Source: Candidatus Omnitrophota bacterium (GTDB lineage Bacteria > Omnitrophota > Gorgyraeia > JAFGIU01). From it: 47,968 bases of DNA. Numbering within the stretch: position 1 is the first letter of the stretch; every line of letters starts with the position of its first letter. The notes beneath the pieces were generated by a model. It had not been told where the DNA came from. It saw only the letters and a program-made list of their open reading frames with translations, and ran no database searches. The DNA is taken from assembly GCA_016929445.1 (NCBI GenBank), contig JAFGIU010000001.1:1-47968 (forward strand), given 5' to 3'. Positions 12,383 to 34,880 of the stretch are shown here, one piece after another. The position numbers were made by a program, and so were the translations under genes.

Positions 12383-13956
12383 CCCTCGTCCATTACCCCT
12401 TGCTCACGGTCTTCATACCCCTGTTTGCGGCGGTTCTGATCCCGCTGCTCGCATGGAAACGGCCGCATGCGGCGTTTGGGCTTGCGCTCTCGGGCAGCTT
12501 AGGTTCTGCGGCTTGTGCTTTGGCCGGGCTTCGTTACGTATTGATGAACGGCCCCTTGTCCTATGCCATCGCCAGCTGGGCCCCTCCGCTGGGCATTGAG
12601 TACGTGCTGGATCCTATTGCCGGGTACGTGAGCAGCGTGATTGCCTGCGTTGCCGCGGCTGTGGTGCTTTTTACCAAGGCCCGCATGTTGCCTCGGCTCG
12701 GTGCGCGGGCGGGAGCTTTCTATGCCCTGGTGCTGCTGCTGATCGCGGGGTTGTTGGGCATAGTCATCACCGGAGACCTGTTCAATCTCTATGTGTTTTT
12801 GGAAATCTCCTCCTTGGCCGCCTATGCACTCATCGCTCTCGGCAGCGCGCGTTCCGCGTTTGCGGCCTTCCGCTACCTGCTCTTGGGGACTCTGGCCGGC
12901 TCCCTCTATTTGCTCGGAGTCGGACAGCTTTATGTGCTGACCGGCACGCTCAACATGGCGGATATGGCAATGCTCTTGCCCGGGGTGTGGAGTTCCCCTG
13001 TGATCCAGCTCGGGCTGATTTTAATTGTGAGCGGCCTGTGCTTGAAGATGGCACTCTTTCCTTTGCATACCTGGTTGCCCGATGCCTACAGCTATGCGCC
13101 CACGGGTATTTCTGCGCTGATCTCCTCGACCATGAGCAAGGTGGCGGCCTATGCGCTGGTGCGCGTTTTGTTTTGGGTCTTTAATGCCGGGCACGGGAAT
13201 TACTGCGACCCTGTCCTGCAAGTAATCGCCGGACTCGGAGCAGTGGCCATCGTGGCAGGCTCCGTGCTGGCTATTGCTCAACAAGAGTACAAACGCATGC
13301 TCGCCTACAGCAGCGTGGCGCAGGTGGGCTATATCGCCGTGGGGATCGGGATGGCCAATCCCTGGGCCTTGACCGGCGCGCTTTTCCATATATTGGCCCA
13401 TGCCGTGGCCAAGGCCTTGCTGTTCTTGGTGGGGGGACAGGCGCAGGGGCCGGAGACGGTTCTGGGACCGGAAGAGCCTGACACCCTCCCCATCCGTTCC
13501 TTAACCGGACTGGGCAAACGGCAACCTATGGTGGCAGCCTGCTTTACCGTGGCAGCACTCTCCATGGTGGGCGTACCGCCGCTGGCCGGGTTTTTCAGCA
13601 AGTGGTATTTGGTGCTGGGCGCATTGCACGGAAGGCATTGGGTCCTCCTTATTGCCATTCTTTCGAGCACTCTGCTCAATGCCGTCTATTTCTTCCGCAT
13701 TTTGGAGCGTATGTATTTGCACGCAGGGGCCAGGGAGGTATCTCCGGAGGAGATACGTCCCTGTGAGTCAAATGCTGAGGGACACACCTCTGCAGACCTT
13801 AAGGGACGCATCTCCTCCGGAGATACGTCCCTCCCCGAGGCTCTGGCGATAACGATCCCCATCGTGGGCTTGGCGATCGCCGTGCTGGCTGCGGGCGTTT
13901 TGAGCTCGGGGATCGTATCCGGTGTAATTTTGAAGGGAATACAGGGAATCCTATGA
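12379..13956 (+). CDS. mnhD: Mrp antiporter subunit D, first copy (NuoN/MrpD-like)
   Basis: This 525-residue ion-pumping subunit of the Proton_antipo_M superfamily has about 14 helices. It carries the conserved glutamate of helix 5 (Glu142 in FLEISSLAAYALIAL) and the helix 7-8 segment KMALFPLHTWLPDAYSYAPT, followed by a lysine in STMSKVAAYALVRV. The loop near the C-terminus, about residues 451-485, is unusual: two copies of a short palindromic DNA element encode it in frame, adding Ser/Glu/Gly-rich sequence before the last helix. The ATG overlaps mnhC by four bases. Confidence 0.9.
   Translation: MTLVHYPLLTVFIPLFAAVLIPLLAWKRPHAAFGLALSGSLGSAACALAGLRYVLMNGPLSYAIASWAPPLGIEYVLDPIAGYVSSVIACVAAAVVLFTKARMLPRLGARAGAFYALVLLLIAGLLGIVITGDLFNLYVFLEISSLAAYALIALGSARSAFAAFRYLLLGTLAGSLYLLGVGQLYVLTGTLNMADMAMLLPGVWSSPVIQLGLILIVSGLCLKMALFPLHTWLPDAYSYAPTGISALISSTMSKVAAYALVRVLFWVFNAGHGNYCDPVLQVIAGLGAVAIVAGSVLAIAQQEYKRMLAYSSVAQVGYIAVGIGMANPWALTGALFHILAHAVAKALLFLVGGQAQGPETVLGPEEPDTLPIRSLTGLGKRQPMVAACFTVAALSMVGVPPLAGFFSKWYLVLGALHGRHWVLLIAILSSTLLNAVYFFRILERMYLHAGAREVSPEEIRPCESNAEGHTSADLKGRISSGDTSLPEALAITIPIVGLAIAVLAAGVLSSGIVSGVILKGIQGIL
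13732..13832. repeat. Two copies of a GGGACG-type palindrome within the first mnhD
   Basis: Copy 1 spans 13732-13762: AGGGAGGTATCTCC, loop GGA, GGAGATACGTCCCT. Copy 2 spans 13802-13832: AGGGACGCATCTCC, loop TCC, GGAGATACGTCCCT. Each pair of 14-base arms has one mismatch. Both lie inside the reading frame near the C-terminus. A partial third copy may lie between them (GAGGGACACACCTC). Confidence 0.85.
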
Positions 13957-15522: not shown

Positions 15523-15563
15523 CGGTGTCAGGCACTGGTGCCAGGCACCGGTGTCAGGCACCG
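15523..15563. repeat. GGTGCCAGGCACC-type repeat cluster after the second D gene
   Basis: Alternating GGTGTCAGGCACT, GGTGCCAGGCACC and GGTGTCAGGCACC units fill 41 bases starting 12 bases after the stop at 15510. Related copies lie at 31139-31179 and 34161-34186, each just downstream of a stop codon. The units can fold into GC-rich hairpins. Confidence 0.8.
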
Positions 15564-15576
15564 TGATTGGAGAAAT

Positions 15577-17452: not shown

Positions 17453-20400
17453 TTACAATCCCAGTTCAAGAATGCCGGCAGTATTTGCCTGCTCTAAGAG
17501 AGTGTCTGAAGCATTGTAATTTCTATACCCCTGCCCGCCGGAATCCTCACCAGCCCTCAGTTGCTTTACAAGCCTTTGAACAACCACTGTCATCCCGATC
17601 CGCTTCGGGCCTGCGGTCTTGATTTCCATTGCATTAAGACGTGTGATTGCCCCTGCCGCATTCGCTGAGTTTTCCAAAATATCCAGAATCGTGGCGACAT
17701 CTTGAGCATGCGCTCCCAGAATCGCGGCCTCGATCCCCTGGTTCATCAAGTCGAATCTCTCCCAGAGCATTACCACCAGGTCCTTTCTCATCCGCAGTTG
17801 GTGCGCATAGGCGATTATGGTTCCAAGAAGGTCTGTATTCACGACACCGTGTTTTCTCAAGAAGGCAACGACAGGATCTCTCTTCACTGCTTCTTGTCCA
17901 AAAAGCAAAATATTCGCCGCTGCCACAGCGAGATCTCCGCGCTCAAAATCCCTGTGTTCCAATTCCTCCCCCACCTCTTTCAGGAAATCAACAGCCGATA
18001 AAACTCTTATCTTGCCCACCTGATCAAAAAACGCTCCGGAATCGCTGTGCAAAAACCTTTCGTACTCATGGTCCAAGGCAGCCGCAATGTTTTCTCCGGT
18101 ATTGGGGTCCACGGAAGCTTCCGTCATTAAGAACTGCACCTCGTTAATCCATAACAAGGCCTCACGCACAATTCGGGCCTTGCCCGAATCGGAGTAGACA
18201 TAATTTGTCTGCATTTGATCGAATGCTCCCTCACTAAAGAGTGGTTGGCTTGCTCCACCCAAAGGAAACAGGCTGTTGACCAGCCTTAACGTCCGAAAAA
18301 AGCGTTCTCCGGGGATCTCATCCTGATCCCCTGGGGACATGGAGGCGCGCACATTTCCGGCAAGCCCTTCCAGATCTGCCAGATCTGCCACATCCTCAAA
18401 TCCCATATCCTGCATCAGCTGCTGCCGGTCCGCACGCTGAGTGAACCAGTCCTGCTGTTCCAGTTCAGCCAAGGCCACAGCCGCAAATCGGGCCCTGGAA
18501 ACATCGGGATGATCTTGATTCTGCCCGGCAATATCAATCCATTTCAAGATCAAGAGGATAATACTGTCCTGCTTCAGGACATCATGCACACCCAGTTCGC
18601 CCAGGATTTGCCTGACTCCAGGGTGGATCAACGGAGAACCTTCTTGAAAAGCACGATCAAATAATTGCGCTGCCAAGCTCGCCAATTCAACATTCTGTTG
18701 CCAATCCCAGTACACGCCGGCTAGAGCTTTCAGCTGCCTTGAACTGTAGTCAAAAGGATTATCCGGGGCATCCAGCCCTTGCCCGGATCTCTGGATTTTT
18801 TCGAAGGCTTCCGATACCTGGGCAGTGACGAACTCAAGGTCCTTCCACCTCTTGGTAAGGATGGCGTTAACGGCCCTGTCTTCCATAACTTTGAGCGCCA
18901 CACTTTGCGACAGAGTAGCTTCAAAGGTTTGCACAAAAGCGGTCGCATGCAGAGCTGCTTCTTGTGGATTCACTACAGCAACGGCATAGTCCTCCTGCAG
19001 GAGCATATACTGATGCTGCACAAGGTAATTGGCCCATTCAAGAATTTCAGTCTTAAGCAGCGCATACCGCACACCGTCCCCGCTGGTTGCCGCCTGCATG
19101 ACATCCCTGACAATATCCGAAGGCATAAGAATCCCCGGAATCCGGAGGTCTCGCAAACGCTCCGCATAGACTTCCCGGCGAACCTGCTCATAGGCTTCCC
19201 CAATTCTGGAGCCCGTTGTCTCAACCAGGGCTTTTATACGAACATATGTCTCCGCGTCTTCCTTCTCGCTGGGAATATCGTTGCGCCGGACATGATCTTC
19301 CAACCACTGCCTGCTTTCTCCATAAAGCTGAAAGAGCGTGGCCAAGTCCTTGGCGCGCACCAGCGCTTGCAGGCGCAGCTCAAAGGAATCCGACGGCAGG
19401 CCTCTCGTGGGATCGTGGGACAGGCGCGCAAAACTCGATGCCAGGGAATGGCTCCAATTCATGGGAGGAACCCGAGACATCCCTTCAAACACAGCGCCTG
19501 GAAGCAATTCAAGATTCTCGAAGATCTCTTCAAAGAGAGCCTCCAGCTGCACCTCTTCACTGAGATTTGAAGCCAGGTAAATATCGAGGCCGCCACCCTC
19601 TCGCGGAATACTACAGGCTGTGGCCAATTGGCCGGGATTGGGCCCCAGATTACTCTGAGGACTGATGAAGAGACGAACTTCCCGACGATCTAAAGAGCGC
19701 GCCAGAACCTCCAGAATTTGGGACTCCTTTTCTGTCACACTGCCGGATGCAGTCCACCCGGAAAGCTTGGCTCGAACGGCTTCTGCATGATCCCCGCCTG
19801 CTTCGTATTCCCTCTGGGCCCCCATCCTTGCCCGGACTCCCATTTCTTTATTGGCTGCTTCGCGCTGGGAGCCGGACGAAAAGGCGGCCATATAGCCTGA
19901 GGCGACTAACCCAGCCGCTTTTTGTTCCTCCGTGCGCCGGTAAGCTTTCCCGGAAACATAGCTGACCCCTTGAACATTGGGTACTGGAAGACGGTGATCT
20001 ATCCCCCGCACTCCGTCTGTCATCCCTTGCAGCACAGCCCATGAAGCCCTAGGTTTGCCGGAGCGAATTCCACGAAGCACTCTCACTGCGTTTATGGCCG
20101 AATACTGAAACAGCCATTTAAGTGAAACCCCTCCAAAACTTCGCACCACAGCAATGTGGTTTCGCGCGCTATTCCTTAGCACGAATGGACTGGAAGGGCC
20201 TCCCGTGCTTCCTCCTCCCCGGGTATGCTGAACTCGGCTGTCACTGACCAGCACTGTGCACAATCCTGCATCTTGCAACTTCCCTCCCAGAAAGCTTTCC
20301 TCAGCATAGGCAAAAAAATGGCCTGGCCAGCCTCCAATCCCGTGCCAGACTTTTTCCCTAATAAGAATCGCCGCTCCAGAAACAGTATCCACCGTCATTG

Positions 20401-21712
20401 CTGGTTGAGAAGGATCGATCGTGCGAATCCCCGGCCGTTTTAACCATGTGCTCCCTAGAAATCTGGATCCCGCATTAAGAATCTCGTCCGGCTTCTCCAA
20501 GGAGACAATGACACTGCCAAGCACCCCGATGTCATCTGCGGGCACGTCCTCCGCTCCCTCCTGAAGCACACGCACTAAGGCGGCAAGAGCGCCTGGTTGA
20601 ACCGCCGCGTCGTTATTCAGACACCATATTGCCTCCGCGACCAATACATCGCACCCGAATTCAGCAGCAACATTGTGGCCTTCATCAAAACCCAAATTCG
20701 TATCAGACCGCAGCAGGTGGGTCGCGCACAGATTCGGGAACTTCTCCAGGAGGCTTGCTTTGTGTGTTTCATAAAATTTATCCTCAGTGGACCCGTTGTC
20801 CAGTATCACGAGTTCCACATAGGGATACTCAAGTTGCTCCAGACTCCGGAGCAACTTTTCTGTCTCCTTCCCGCCATTCCAATTGAGTGTGGTGATCACA
20901 ATCTTCGGAGGGGCGTTCAAAGAAAACAGTTCTGCGGAAAAGGATCGCAAGTCAAATGAATTCTCCACGACAATCCGGCCGGAAAGGACATCGTAGCGAA
21001 CGGGTATTCCCTTGACTAAGATGGCTTGCCCCTTGATCCACTTACTCCAGACTGCGGGCCAATTCCCGGACAAACTCTTGCCAAAGGCCGGAACCTCATC
21101 TGGACGCAGAATTCCCATTTCAAGAAGTTGATCGGACAGCATTGTCTTTGCTTTGGCGGAGCGGATACCGTCTCCCAAAGCCATTTGCCTAAGAAGAGAA
21201 AGGCGAAGATCTTTGACATACCGCCGGTGACCCGCATAGTCGTGAGGAGCAAGATGTTGCAAGCGTATATCAAAAGCCTTCCGGACATCCGCATTTAGAT
21301 AGTGATGCGCAGCACAAATCGCGCGGGGAATTGCGGCAGAGTTAATTTCAGGAAGCAGGCACTGAAGGTCCCACTCCAGGAGATCTTTGAGGACATCTTC
21401 CAGGGGAATTAACTCACCAGAACCATGACGATCAAAAGCAGTCAAAAGCGCCTTACGAAACGCTTCCGCCATGACAGGCGCATTGTCGATTCTCCGAGAC
21501 CACTGAATCGGCTCCGCAGTTGAGGCAGCGGCCTCCATTACCTGTATCATTCTCTGCATTGCGGGACCGGCATCCTGTCCCATAACGGGGATATTCACAG
21601 AAGGAGGAATGCAGGCAGACTCCCGCATCTGCGCCCAGCCGGGAGTGATGCTGGTCACCAAGAAGACTTGCGTAAATAGGAGTGCGACGAGGCGTGTGGC
21701 TGAATTGCTCAT
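17453..21712 (-). CDS. Giant secreted protein with internal family 2 glycosyltransferase-like domain
   Basis: This 1419-residue protein starts with a clear signal peptide (MSNSATRLVALLFTQVFLVT, ending near PGWAQ). Residues about 30-265 are a helical region of no known family. About 269-530 is a GT-A, GT2-like domain: PKIVITTLNWNG, VELVILDNGSTED, the WCLNNDAAV motif as the DxD equivalent (about residues 366-368), then VSGAAILIREKVW and FFAYAEESF. The best resemblance is to rhamnosyltransferases of the WbbL kind. The remaining 850 or so residues are mostly helical and unrecognised. GT2 enzymes normally work in the cytoplasm on nucleotide sugars, so a signal peptide in front is odd. The ATG at 21712 is preferred over an in-frame GTG at 21727, which lies inside a palindromic element. 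Confidence 0.8.
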   Translation of the reverse strand: MSNSATRLVALLFTQVFLVTSITPGWAQMRESACIPPSVNIPVMGQDAGPAMQRMIQVMEAAASTAEPIQWSRRIDNAPVMAEAFRKALLTAFDRHGSGELIPLEDVLKDLLEWDLQCLLPEINSAAIPRAICAAHHYLNADVRKAFDIRLQHLAPHDYAGHRRYVKDLRLSLLRQMALGDGIRSAKAKTMLSDQLLEMGILRPDEVPAFGKSLSGNWPAVWSKWIKGQAILVKGIPVRYDVLSGRIVVENSFDLRSFSAELFSLNAPPKIVITTLNWNGGKETEKLLRSLEQLEYPYVELVILDNGSTEDKFYETHKASLLEKFPNLCATHLLRSDTNLGFDEGHNVAAEFGCDVLVAEAIWCLNNDAAVQPGALAALVRVLQEGAEDVPADDIGVLGSVIVSLEKPDEILNAGSRFLGSTWLKRPGIRTIDPSQPAMTVDTVSGAAILIREKVWHGIGGWPGHFFAYAEESFLGGKLQDAGLCTVLVSDSRVQHTRGGGSTGGPSSPFVLRNSARNHIAVVRSFGGVSLKWLFQYSAINAVRVLRGIRSGKPRASWAVLQGMTDGVRGIDHRLPVPNVQGVSYVSGKAYRRTEEQKAAGLVASGYMAAFSSGSQREAANKEMGVRARMGAQREYEAGGDHAEAVRAKLSGWTASGSVTEKESQILEVLARSLDRREVRLFISPQSNLGPNPGQLATACSIPREGGGLDIYLASNLSEEVQLEALFEEIFENLELLPGAVFEGMSRVPPMNWSHSLASSFARLSHDPTRGLPSDSFELRLQALVRAKDLATLFQLYGESRQWLEDHVRRNDIPSEKEDAETYVRIKALVETTGSRIGEAYEQVRREVYAERLRDLRIPGILMPSDIVRDVMQAATSGDGVRYALLKTEILEWANYLVQHQYMLLQEDYAVAVVNPQEAALHATAFVQTFEATLSQSVALKVMEDRAVNAILTKRWKDLEFVTAQVSEAFEKIQRSGQGLDAPDNPFDYSSRQLKALAGVYWDWQQNVELASLAAQLFDRAFQEGSPLIHPGVRQILGELGVHDVLKQDSIILLILKWIDIAGQNQDHPDVSRARFAAVALAELEQQDWFTQRADRQQLMQDMGFEDVADLADLEGLAGNVRASMSPGDQDEIPGERFFRTLRLVNSLFPLGGASQPLFSEGAFDQMQTNYVYSDSGKARIVREALLWINEVQFLMTEASVDPNTGENIAAALDHEYERFLHSDSGAFFDQVGKIRVLSAVDFLKEVGEELEHRDFERGDLAVAAANILLFGQEAVKRDPVVAFLRKHGVVNTDLLGTIIAYAHQLRMRKDLVVMLWERFDLMNQGIEAAILGAHAQDVATILDILENSANAAGAITRLNAMEIKTAGPKRIGMTVVVQRLVKQLRAGEDSGGQGYRNYNASDTLLEQANTAGILELGL

Positions 21713-21722
21713 GACATTAGGG

Positions 21723-21747
21723 GACACATCTCCGTTGGAGATATGTC
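21723..21747. repeat. ATCTCC palindrome upstream of the giant secreted protein
   Basis: GACACATCTCC (21723-21733), loop GTT and GGAGATATGTC (21737-21747) form 11-base arms with one mismatch. It belongs to the same family as the copies in mnhD and sits in the 5' leader of the giant gene, where a hairpin could mask or replace the ribosome-binding site. Confidence 0.75.
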
Positions 21748-21789
21748 TCCTGAAGCTCGGAGATAGCTGCCCCTATAGATTTAGGGAAA

Positions 21790-28652: not shown

Positions 28653-30257
28653 TTACAGGCTTTCTAACAGCAGGCTCATCGCAGTGGAGCCTTGTTTGAT
28701 GGCCTCCGCTTGCCGAAGACTTTTAAGATTGTCCCTGTCGGGTAACGCCTTTATGCCCTTTCTTGCCCAGAGGGCCTGTGTTCGATAAACAGAATACTGG
28801 CCGGCTGCCCTGAGAACACTTCCTCCATCAAAGGAGACCATGTGTTCCTGAAGTGCTCGAATAATCCCGAAAGCATGACGTGTGTGTGTCACCACAAGCA
28901 CGTCTTCTTCCGCATTAAGAATTTGCCAAGCCATATGGCGGTCTCGCATATCATTTTCGATGCGCACATCCTCCTCCGAATCTCGAATCCCTTCATATTC
29001 CTCGTAGAGCTCTCGCATCGCTGGGAGAGACACCTGAATTCCCAAATCCTGGAACCATCTGGCGGCAATTTCAGGCATTGGCACCTGCCAAGCAAAAACG
29101 TGAGAGCTGATCTCTCTGTACGCATAGAAAGCCGCGCTCCGCAAACCAAGCTCATCGTAGACAGCACGCAAACCGCCATGGCTTGCTCTGATATCCACAT
29201 TCACGGCTCTCCGGCCGGTACTCAGGGCATGGTCCACCGCGTAGCTCATTTCGTTCTCGAACCAAACAGTCTTGAGCCCCTCTTGAACGGCATTCCCGAG
29301 ACTGCTGCCATCTCGAGACAATTCAAGGATCCAGCCGTGGAGGGAGCTTTCGGCATGGGTATTGCCTTCTTCAACCATCAGCACCCGCGCCTTGGGATGG
29401 GCAGCCATTCCCTCCTTGATATGACTCTTCTCAGAGTCCGTCGGCTTGGTTAACTCGCCCTCCAAAGAGTATCCGTCCCGGTAAACAAAGTTGGCTGCTT
29501 CCCGGTCATGCACCGTGCTCACAAAATGCACCTCCCGGAGAGCTCCTGAGGGTGACTGAATGGTCACAGTGGCAGTCATCCGGTTTACAATGTGTCCCGG
29601 CACAAGGACCTCTGTTCCTTCCAGGCTGACCGGAGCCTCCACCTTTCGACAAAATGCTTGTGCTTCGGGCTGCGTCATTGTTTCAAGCGGATAGGGCTCT
29701 ACCCCAAAGATCACTCCCTCCATTGACCGCATTACTGCAGCCGGGGACACGTGCTCCGTCTCCGTGCCGGTTCCCCCAGAGGGCGCATCCTCGCTGCGCA
29801 AAACTTCCTCCTCAGGATTGCCCCCCTGGTACCATTCAACGAGCGTCTTTTCACGGTCCTGCCCCAAATTTTTAAATCCCACCCGGTCTCTCAGCAGGGC
29901 GAAGGCACGAGCACCTACATCAAGATTCTCAGAATGAGTTCGACCCGCATCTTGTACAATTGTCTGGGTTGGGAAATCGTATGCGGGTTCAGCAGCCGCG
30001 GCAAGCATCAGCGCAGTATAGAAGGCTTCGGCATCCGGTCCCTCTTTAGCGCCGAAGTACTGCGAAAGTTCACCATGAGTTCGCAAGACCGATTCCATCC
30101 CTCCTCGCTCGAGAAGCCAAGAGGTCCATGATCGTCGAATACCTTCCTCAAAGGTGGAAGTAACGGCAAGTTGTGCGGGCTGTGCTGCCCATATCCCGGT
30201 AGGAAGAATACAGGAGACGGCAATACAAAAAATGAAAATCAGGCTGCGGAAGGACAT
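28653..30257 (-). CDS. Secreted protein of unknown function, possibly TraB/GumN-like
   Basis: This 534-residue protein starts with a signal peptide (SLIFIFCIAVSCILPTGIWA, cleavage near AAQPA). The first 200 residues are helical and unrecognised. In the second half VHFVSTVHD (243-251), VLMVEEG (292-298), NDMRDRHMAWQI (435-446) and VLVVTHTRHAFGI (453-465) occur in an order that recalls the TraB/GumN/PrgY fold: a GxxH motif, a buried glutamate, an R..M helix and a final G.xH.xG motif. The match is by eye and weak. GAGGTG lies before the ATG. It is monocistronic, between pyrF and the atp operon. Its secretion and helical N-terminus are shared with the giant protein at 17.4 kb. Confidence 0.65.
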   Translation of the reverse strand: MSFRSLIFIFCIAVSCILPTGIWAAQPAQLAVTSTFEEGIRRSWTSWLLERGGMESVLRTHGELSQYFGAKEGPDAEAFYTALMLAAAAEPAYDFPTQTIVQDAGRTHSENLDVGARAFALLRDRVGFKNLGQDREKTLVEWYQGGNPEEEVLRSEDAPSGGTGTETEHVSPAAVMRSMEGVIFGVEPYPLETMTQPEAQAFCRKVEAPVSLEGTEVLVPGHIVNRMTATVTIQSPSGALREVHFVSTVHDREAANFVYRDGYSLEGELTKPTDSEKSHIKEGMAAHPKARVLMVEEGNTHAESSLHGWILELSRDGSSLGNAVQEGLKTVWFENEMSYAVDHALSTGRRAVNVDIRASHGGLRAVYDELGLRSAAFYAYREISSHVFAWQVPMPEIAARWFQDLGIQVSLPAMRELYEEYEGIRDSEEDVRIENDMRDRHMAWQILNAEEDVLVVTHTRHAFGIIRALQEHMVSFDGGSVLRAAGQYSVYRTQALWARKGIKALPDRDNLKSLRQAEAIKQGSTAMSLLLESL

Positions 30258-31138: not shown

Positions 31139-31179
31139 CGGTGCCAGGCACCGGTGCCAGGCACCAGTGCCTGACACCG
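31139..31179. repeat. GGTGCCAGGCACC-type repeat cluster between pyrC and pyrF
   Basis: GGTGCCAGGCACC, GGTGCCAGGCACC and AGTGCCTGACACC units abut the pyrC stop (31180-31182) on its downstream side and end 13 bases before the pyrF start. The same family occurs at 15523-15563 and 34161-34186. Confidence 0.85.
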
Positions 31180-32454
31180 TTATTTTCGATACACAATCTT
31201 GCCGCGGCACAGGGTCATTTCAATAACCCCGGGCAAAGTCATTCCCATAAACGGAGTGTTCTTGGATTTAGAATGAATCTCTTCTTCTTTCACGGTCCAC
31301 TCGGACTCTAAATCCACCAGGGCAACATCAGCATCAACCCCCTCGCTCAACGATCCCGCAGGAAGAGCGAAAATCTTGGCCGGGGCCGAGCTCATTTTAT
31401 CAATGAGCTGCGAAAGCGTCAGAATCTTCGTGTGGACCAGTTCCTTTAGAGACAAAGAGAATGCTGTTTCCAGTCCGATGATTCCGCAAGGCGCCACATT
31501 GTATTCCATTTCCTTTTCCCACTGAGTATGGGGAGCATGGTCCGTGGCAATACAATCCACAGTGCCGTCGGCCAGACCCTCTTTGATCGCAATGATGTCT
31601 TCCTGCGTGCGCAGAGGCGGATACATTTTCGTACAGGGGTCATAGTTGCGGACGGCCTCATGGGAAAGGCTAAAGTGGTGAGGACAGACTTCACAGGTCA
31701 CATCCACACCCCGCGCCTTGGCCTCGCGCACCTGCCATATCGACCCTGCGCAACTGGCGTGCGCAATGTGCAATTTTCCGCCGGTCATTTCCGCCAGCTC
31801 AATATCCCGGGCCACCATCACGGTTTCGCTGGCCGCGGGCATCCCCTTAAGCCCCAGCTCGGTGGATACGACACCCTCGTGCATCACCGCACCCTCGGAC
31901 AAATCCAGGTCTTGGCAGTGGTCGGAGATCCGCAGATCAAACATTTTGGCATATTCCAAGGCGTGTCGCATGACCTTGCTGGAATACACCGGGCGGCCGT
32001 CATCGGAGAGGGCGACCACACCCGCATCTTTGAGTTCGCCGATCTCCGACAGCAACTTGCCTTCCAAGTTTTTGGTCACGGCTCCGAAAGGAAACACTTT
32101 GATGAGTCCTACCCGCTCGGCCTCTGCATAGATCATCTGCACCAGAGAGCGCTCATCAATCACCGGCTTGGTGTTGGGCATACAGCAAACACTTGTAAAA
32201 CCGCCCTTGGCTGCGGCCCGGCTGCCGCTCTCGATGGTTTCCTTTCCTTCCTGTCCCGGCTGTCTCAGATGAGTGTGCACATCGACCAGGCCCGGAAACA
32301 CATGCTTGCCCGAGGCATTGATAATCTCGTCCACGGCTTCTTTGATATTCTTTTGCACCTTTACGATCCGGCCGTCCTGGATCAATACATCGCGCAGCTC
32401 GTCAATTTTATTGGCCGGATCCACCACATGGCCGCCCTTAATCAGAATACGCAT
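31180..32454 (-). CDS. pyrC: Dihydroorotase (type I)
   Basis: This 424-residue zinc amidohydrolase closes carbamoyl aspartate to dihydroorotate, the third step of UMP synthesis. The metal-binding HxH is His60-x-His62 in GLVDVHTHLRQPGQE, and other signatures are VALSDDGRPVYSSKVM and CIATDHAPHTQWEKE. The C-terminal beta domain contains GVDADVALVDLE. Length and motifs fit the class I group that pairs with a separate ATCase. It lies 13 bases after pyrB. A repeat element is fused to its stop codon. Confidence 0.95.
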   Translation of the reverse strand: MRILIKGGHVVDPANKIDELRDVLIQDGRIVKVQKNIKEAVDEIINASGKHVFPGLVDVHTHLRQPGQEGKETIESGSRAAAKGGFTSVCCMPNTKPVIDERSLVQMIYAEAERVGLIKVFPFGAVTKNLEGKLLSEIGELKDAGVVALSDDGRPVYSSKVMRHALEYAKMFDLRISDHCQDLDLSEGAVMHEGVVSTELGLKGMPAASETVMVARDIELAEMTGGKLHIAHASCAGSIWQVREAKARGVDVTCEVCPHHFSLSHEAVRNYDPCTKMYPPLRTQEDIIAIKEGLADGTVDCIATDHAPHTQWEKEMEYNVAPCGIIGLETAFSLSLKELVHTKILTLSQLIDKMSSAPAKIFALPAGSLSEGVDADVALVDLESEWTVKEEEIHSKSKNTPFMGMTLPGVIEMTLCRGKIVYRK

Positions 32455-34143: not shown

Positions 34144-34160
34144 GCCTCGGTGTCCCACTC

Positions 34161-34186
34161 GGTGCCAGGCACCGGTGCCTGGCACC
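34161..34186. repeat. Perfect GGTGCCAGGCACC palindrome after rsmI
   Basis: GGTGCCAGGCACC is directly followed by its reverse complement GGTGCCTGGCACC, a 26-base perfect palindrome. It ends two bases from the rsmI stop and lies just upstream of the pyr promoter. It is the cleanest copy of the family in the window and could act as a transcript-end hairpin for rsmI. Confidence 0.9.
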
Positions 34187-34187
34187 G

Positions 34188-34880
34188 TTATTTCTTAGCG
34201 CCGGAAATGACGAGCACAAGTTCGCCTTTGGGGGCTTTGGTCTGCACATGGTCCAGCAGTTCCGGCAAGGTACCGTGCAGGGTCTCTTCGAACTTCTTGG
34301 TGAGTTCACGGGAAAGACTGGCAGGACGATCGCCCAGGATCTCCGCCGCATCGATCAGGGCCTTCACAATGCGGTGAGGGCTTTCAAAAAAGACCAGCGT
34401 GTGGCTGTACTCCGAAAGTTCTTTGAGCCTGCGGCGCCGGGTAGCGCCTTTGTTGGAGAGAAATCCTTCAAAATGGAATCGGTCCGTGGGCAGGCCCGAC
34501 ACAACCAACGCAGCCAAGAGAGAGGACGGGCCGGGAACAGCCGCCACCTTCAGGCTCTCTTTGATCGCGAGCCGCACCAAAGGGAATCCCGGGTCGCTAA
34601 TGGATGGCGTGCCCGCGTCGCAAACCAGCGCCACGCGGCGTCCGCATTTCATGGCAGCCACAAGCCCCGGGGCTTTGTCGCGCTCGTTGTGTTCGTGAAA
34701 GCTCTGGATGTCGGTGGAGATATTCCAGTGCGCGCAAAGCTTGCGTGTATGCCGGGTGTCTTCTGCGGCAATGAGATCCACCCCTTGAAGAACCTCCACG
34801 GCCCGCGGGCTCATGTCCTGCAGATTCCCGATGGGAGTGGCTACCAAATACAAATCATGATCCAGCGGAACGCTAGGCAT
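34188..34880 (-). CDS. rsmI: 16S rRNA 2'-O-methyltransferase RsmI
   Basis: This 230-residue tetrapyrrole-methylase-fold enzyme methylates the ribose of C1402 in 16S rRNA. Signatures include DHDLYLVATPIGNLQDMSPRA at the N-terminus, LIAAEDTRHTRKL, RVALVCDAGTPSISDPGFPL and LVFFESPHRIVKAL. It is shorter than the E. coli protein (about 286 residues) because the C-terminal helical extension is missing, a common variant. It overlaps the upstream NUDIX gene by eight bases. Confidence 0.95.
   Translation of the reverse strand: MPSVPLDHDLYLVATPIGNLQDMSPRAVEVLQGVDLIAAEDTRHTRKLCAHWNISTDIQSFHEHNERDKAPGLVAAMKCGRRVALVCDAGTPSISDPGFPLVRLAIKESLKVAAVPGPSSLLAALVVSGLPTDRFHFEGFLSNKGATRRRRLKELSEYSHTLVFFESPHRIVKALIDAAEILGDRPASLSRELTKKFEETLHGTLPELLDHVQTKAPKGELVLVISGAKK

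Follow-up and report, generated by a model that had tools for sequence, protein, structure and literature searches.

Large and giant exported proteins have already been published for Omnitrophota and its sister phyla (PMC10066038, PMC11573180, PMC12057145). An epibiotic or predatory lifestyle is described for Omnitrophota, in which one giant protein was up 3-fold on attachment, and the giant proteins show little conservation and are difficult to assign (PMC10066038). Herein, we analyzed a gene at positions 17453-21712, minus strand, of a 47,968-nucleotide stretch of DNA (positions 1 to 47,968 of contig JAFGIU010000001.1, hereafter the window) from an Omnitrophota metagenome-assembled genome (MAG). 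Its product carries a family 2 glycosyltransferase (GT2) domain behind a signal peptide. Its membership in a leader-tagged class of Omnitrophota proteins, which we define here, is well supported. An earlier note, made from the sequence alone, had described a secreted protein with a GT2 enzyme inside and had pointed out that such enzymes use cytoplasmic nucleotide sugars. That puzzle proved real for this protein but not peculiar to it: at least 20 proteins share the leader, and others among them carry enzymes of cytosolic type.

The gene and its leader are placed as follows.

17453..21712, minus strand: gene of the putatively exported GT2 protein, ATG at 21712, stop codon at 17453-17455
21632..21712, minus strand: signal peptide, residues 1-27, the class module with R7, Q15, F17 and W26-A27 (profile A2, E = 1e-15; profile A4, E = 7.7e-12)

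The gene lies where the earlier note had placed it and is a single uninterrupted open reading frame (ORF) of 1419 amino acids (aa) plus the stop, with 0 internal stops. The G+C content at third codon positions is uniform along the ORF (0.40-0.60 per 100 codons; neighbors 0.51-0.72). This evenness, together with a leader that belongs to a genome-wide family, indicates that the ORF is a real gene. Starting from an alternative in-frame GTG, at 21727, the product would have 1424 aa; since this codon sits inside a dispersed palindromic element (21720-21750), the ATG at 21712 is the likelier start. A start at M29, without the signal peptide, was rejected in view of the conservation of the leader across the genome. 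By inspection and hydropathy, the leader, MSNSATRLVALLFTQVFLVTSITPGWA^Q (^ marks the cleavage site), has n, h and c regions and a small-x-Ala cleavage site, and no further transmembrane segment was found in the protein at the hydropathy threshold used. These are the features of a Sec/signal peptidase I (Sec/SPI) secreted protein, and the product would, judging from its sequence, be exported and cleaved. The secreted type is supported both by these features and by the leader family.

In sequence, the signal peptide conforms to a stereotyped pattern, R..[IV][AS]L..AQ[VI]F[LF].[TS]S....WA^AP. The consensus of the leaders reads K/R, two residues, S/A, L, about three residues, A, Q/E, V/I, F, L/F, any residue, T/S, a variable stretch and W/x-A^AP; the conserved polar Q/E inside the hydrophobic core is unusual. 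A DNA pattern drawn from this leader and one other retrieved more copies in the genome, with proteins of 605 to >4,800 aa behind them where readable. Profiles A2 and A4 were built from eight and 36 leader sequences, partly from the own genome and with the present leader among the training rows. A2 found 20 matches in the own genome, heading proteins mostly of 500-5,400 aa, and its top matches in other genomes head frames of 20415, 8666, 7288, 7021 and 5344 aa. The survey of related genomes covered 384 genomes of one GTDB class, and 98 of them matched A4 at E<=0.01. Among the listed A4 matches outside the training set and the own genome (112 in 57 genomes), 89 head frames of at least 500 aa and 70 head frames of at least 1000 aa (median of the listed matches 1320), many leader-headed frames being clipped at MAG contig ends. 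The best leader match in nine non-Omnitrophota control genomes had an E of 0.026, and the longest frame there was 686 aa. The present protein scores 39.6 bits with the leader profile and ordinary signal-peptide proteins of the same genome score none, which rules out that all Omnitrophota signal peptides are simply alike. Behind the leader, the mature parts of the 20 own-genome members fall into 8 unrelated groups, and an HIQDxHxHxEAQ domain is common to 10 of the 20. Their combined length is 36.8 kaa or more, which corresponds to 110 kb and 4.5% of the genome. The source MAG (2.43 Mb, 97% complete) was assigned by gyrA, compared with 36 relatives, the most similar of which are labelled Candidatus Omnitrophota (59-81% identity); no second genome of its family was found among the relatives searched. 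The assignment and the occurrence of the leader across related genomes agree with the earlier suggestion that such a design may be characteristic of an uncultivated phylum. At 4.26 kb, the gene is below the published giant-ORF criterion of >20 kb; it shares its leader with frames of up to 20415 aa.

We then considered the GT2 domain, whose conserved sites are listed here.

19988..20917, minus strand: GT2 domain and C-terminal helices, residues 266-575 (PF00535, alignment, AlphaFold2, Foldseek)
20798..20800, minus strand: D305 of VILDNGST, nucleotide-binding Asp of GT-A enzymes; D in 18/19 homologues
20609..20620, minus strand: LNND 365-368, equivalent of the DXD metal site (D368); D368 invariant, 19/19
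20297..20302, minus strand: E471-E472, ED/EE catalytic-base motif; E472 as in several homologues
20225..20227, minus strand: H496, invariant His, 19/19 homologues
20159..20164, minus strand: R517-N518, conserved RN; R 15/19, N 19/19

The presence of a GT2/GT-A domain was borne out by a PF00535 match above the curated cut-off (residues 271-423, 27.8 bits against 23.3), by motifs that align with those of 19 homologues, and by structure prediction. The GT-A fold, on which the earlier reading depended, is predicted by AlphaFold2 (from an alignment with 24 viral GT2 rows) with a core at a predicted local distance difference test score (pLDDT) of about 90-96. Foldseek matched this model to GT-A enzymes with E values down to 3e-11, the matches including polypeptide GalNAc-transferases, GlfT2 (E 1e-10), PcManGT and hyaluronan synthase. 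Residue conservation was scored against 19 Omnitrophota GT2 proteins that are 22-30% identical to the present protein. N277, N279, D305, N306, N339, N347, NND 366-368, E471, H496, R517 and N518 are retained. By analogy with GlfT2, the metal ligands would be D368 and H496, with E471/E472 supplying the base. At other positions, P463 replaces D (18/19), F474 replaces D (17/19), K478 replaces R (19/19), and S490 stands where the homologues have P. The acceptor-side residues that are not kept (D of LDE, D of ExxD, and R) are conserved in close homologues and are not family-defining. Together, the retained and the replaced residues suggest that the donor and metal sites are competent and that the acceptor side has changed. 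A recent copy of a cytosolic GT2 was rejected as an origin, the closest own-genome paralogue being only 32% identical.

These replacements raise the question of whether a large surface protein has taken up a GT-A domain that now has a structural or glycan-binding role in the envelope or coat and no longer acts as a sugar-nucleotide enzyme. The periplasm and the exterior normally lack nucleotide sugars, which speaks for such a role, as do D463P, D474F and R478K and a PF00535 score that is the lowest above the cut-off among the 26 matches in the genome. Coat and adhesin roles have been proposed for giant Omnitrophota proteins (PMC10066038). However, unlike a drifting pseudoenzyme, the domain has kept D305, N339, N347, NND, EE, H496 and RN, and the active sites of unrelated enzymes are kept in other class members. 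We regard capture as possible, on the unlikely side. Retention of the donor and metal residues likewise makes the non-catalytic sugar-binding role raised in the earlier note less likely, with P463, F474 and K478 leaving room for an altered or lost activity.

Other members of the class carry a wide range of cytosol-type domains. In the own genome, the cargo comprises NTPase and NDK (contig C4), SIS (C46), an ARMT1 phosphatase (C82), HATPase with sigma-70 region 4 and a LuxR HTH (C41, 76993 on), a methyltransferase (C41, 42494 on), and FAD oxidase, Fe-S and glutamate synthase domains (C85); a member on C70 has RHS/YD-like repeats by a weak Pfam match. The cargo in other species includes FBPase, aldolase and TIM; transketolase, alanine dehydrogenase and an aminotransferase; the GT1 trehalose synthase TreT; glycogen phosphorylase; and an AAA helicase. 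Judged by eye, NDK (HASDS, LKPD), the HATPase boxes, the Cys cluster of glutamate synthase, and the GDG and EQ motifs of transketolase are intact. FBPase/aldolase, TreT and the phosphorylase also look intact. The nucleotide-sugar paradox is therefore class-wide.

One way out of the paradox would be that the leader is a dedicated membrane-targeting helix, with the body kept on the cytoplasmic side of the membrane or inside a compartment of the cell, where cofactors are available. This would explain why the same leader precedes enzymes of cytosolic type, a cargo that requires ATP, S-adenosylmethionine (SAM), thiamine diphosphate and DNA, and the polar Q/E of the core is unusual for a plain signal peptide. 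However, R/K ahead of the core predicts an N-in/C-out orientation, the small-x-Ala^AP cleavage site is conserved in most members, and RHS-like and TPR members exist in the class. In addition, a giant Sec/SPI protein free of transmembrane segments is reported from a sister lineage (PMC12057145). The N-in charge and the sites resembling those of signal peptidase I disfavor the uncleaved anchor with a cytoplasmic body that the earlier note had named; we keep it as a rival and consider it improbable.

Some further proteins were observed alongside the class. In another Omnitrophota, a 5690-aa frame is open over a whole 17-kb contig (L048, G258:C30, 3-17072) and contains tandem cytosol-type domains (starch synthase, SAM methyltransferase, CofD, shikimate dehydrogenase, DUF4922 and others). 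An RHS/YD-repeat-like protein with the class leader (L103, 2-3331, minus strand) is clipped at the contig end. A class member of 1968 aa (L106, 1620-7523, plus strand) contains a stretch reminiscent of GT-A enzymes (VLFAIPTYN, MVDGAP), an HEVPGH motif and a weak match to a methyltransferase, with nothing above the Pfam cut-offs. The own genome also encodes a 1052-aa fusion of a processive GT2 (PF13632) and a polysaccharide deacetylase (L109, 3303-6458, minus strand).

The class is also marked at the other end of its proteins.

17456..17479, minus strand: C-terminal tag AGILELGL, class signature

Complete own-genome members end in TSAL, QSSL, ERSL, QSAL, DRMV, AASL, ARQV, ESAL, QSAL, AEAL, ESSI and, in the present protein, ELGL; ends in other species include EQAI, GQAI, GSAI, LKSL and RSAL. 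A terminal L/I/V was found in 37/46 complete members and 19/82 control ORFs (p=2.6e-10), and a terminal [AS][LIV] in 27/46 and 8/82, respectively (p=5e-9); some non-independence among related species remains in these p-values. Where own-genome members of one group are homologous, they are so mostly over their N-terminal 500-600 residues; common descent of a C-terminal domain therefore does not simply account for the tag. The present protein has the hydrophobic end ILELGL.

Given these results, we put it at about an even chance that the protein is a Sec-exported, probably active GT2 of the tagged class that uses the nucleotide sugars of another cell. It would cross the inner membrane unfolded via Sec, the leader would be cut after GWA, and the protein would fold outside with a working donor/metal site. 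The donor would be nucleotide sugars present at the delivery site, either in the cytoplasm of an attached prey or host cell or among what such a cell has spilled, in keeping with an epibiotic or predatory way of life in Omnitrophota. Several points weigh against this reading. The delivery machinery for the class was not identified, and the predatory lifestyle is known from relatives in another named class, so that it applies here by analogy. Through D463P, D474F and R478K, the acceptor site or the activity may have been changed or lost. The end LGL is imperfect against [AS][LI], with a penultimate G in place of A/S, and 9/46 complete members lack a terminal L/I/V. Both flanks of the domain are orphans, and their models are weak.

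A donor of another kind was also considered. A periplasmic GT2 with a lipid-linked or other non-nucleotide donor, acting in envelope glycan assembly, would have an ordinary envelope role in a genome with 26 PF00535 matches. However, soluble GT2/GT-A domains like this one take their sugar from nucleotide donors, and it is GT-C enzymes that typically work with lipid-linked ones. The gene adjoins the atp operon, no operon for envelope glycans surrounds it, and the other class members would be left unexplained. We consider this very improbable. For the class as a whole, we tentatively propose, as a less than likely extension, that leader and C-terminal tag form a dedicated two-tag Omnitrophota route that delivers many intact metabolic and regulatory enzymes, the present glycosyltransferase included, to attached cells or to a private compartment. 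If true, a sizeable share of the metabolism and regulation of the bacterium would be done outside its own cytoplasm.

The GT2 domain is embedded between two long flanks.

20918..21631, minus strand: N-terminal flank, residues 28-265, helical, homologue not found
17480..19987, minus strand: C-terminal flank, residues 576-1411, probably helical, homologue not found

Both flanks (238 and about 845 aa) are unrecognized, as first described: residues 28-265 and 576-1419 gave zero matches in Pfam, NCBIfam, PHROGs and PDB sequences. Peptide patterns found nothing convincing in the own genome, 59 relatives or GTDB, and a comparison of mature parts matched the flanks to no other class members. The C-terminal flank had no credible match in the 384 class genomes; its best match (E 0.0085) falls in the starch-synthase start of the 5690-aa frame and looks spurious. 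A zincin-like degenerate stretch suggested by eye at residues 680-740 was unsupported by profile searches. The AlphaFold2 models agree that the flanks are mostly helical, at low confidence (pLDDT about 30-79 for the N-terminal flank; mean 38 for the C-terminal flank, too weak for interpretation). A simple phage or viral origin of the protein was rejected, there being no PHROGs match.

Two other features of the window touch the gene or the class.

21720..21750, no strand: dispersed palindromic element directly upstream of the ATG; 3 copies in the window
28653..30257, minus strand: second class-related protein, 534 aa, with a different leader; (AT)FEEGIR N-domain shared with members; ends SLLLESL

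The second protein came to light without use of the leader profile. The atpC gene (22237-21887), which precedes the GT2 gene on the same strand, belongs to the atp operon. The copies of the palindromic element (AGGGA..ATCTCC..GGAGAT..TCCCT) lie at 13732-13762, 13802-13832 and 21720-21750. Repeats of GGTGCCAGGCACC occur at gene borders in the window (15523-15569, 31139-31185 and 34160-34193). Such repeats are apparently translated within some ORFs (GARHRCQAPVSGTG in stretch L108), and in stretch L104 a segment VIASASESVIARSDSDEAI..QRSLRFA.DD is present twice; these sequences resemble palindromic elements inserted in coding sequence.

The leader and the C-terminal tag provide a sequence handle with which the whole class can be listed and with which one can ask what exports or sorts it. 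Either the cargo enzymes work in the cytoplasm of another cell, or the leader does not send them into a space devoid of cofactors; in both cases, the picture of how abundant uncultured Omnitrophota live would change. No report of the common leader, the C-terminal tag or the cytosolic-enzyme cargo was found in the literature searched, preprints and most subscription papers lying outside the search.

Compared with known GT2 enzymes (PF00535; rhamnosyl/galactofuranosyl-type, such as GlfT2), the domain has the GT-A fold, VxDNGS, NxG.....N, LNND, EE, the invariant His and RN, and its C-terminal helices align with those of stand-alone GT2 homologues. It differs in being embedded in a 1419-aa signal-peptide protein with orphan flanks and in D463P, D474F and R478K. 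The giant Omnitrophota ORFs (Seymour et al. 2023, PMC10066038; Ca. Velamenicoccus archaeovorus) resemble it in phylum, large size, few recognized domains and a proposed surface or predation role. However, our protein has only 1419 aa, and the leader, the C-terminal tag and the cytosol-type cargo are undescribed in that paper, in which the word 'signal' has 0 occurrences. The large Sec/SPI protein of Ca. Menyafoubacter (PMC12057145), likened here by its description, comes from a PVC-related lineage and has a standard signal peptide, but it combines a carbohydrate-binding beta-helix with RHS and has no GT2. The YSIRK/GXXS signal peptides of staphylococci (PMC5962339) and the extended signal peptides of autotransporters likewise place a conserved leader on unrelated large exported proteins. 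This comparison serves as an analogy only: the class leader lacks YSIRK/GXXS, belongs to another phylum, carries Q/E in its hydrophobic core and is paired with a C-terminal hydrophobic tag.

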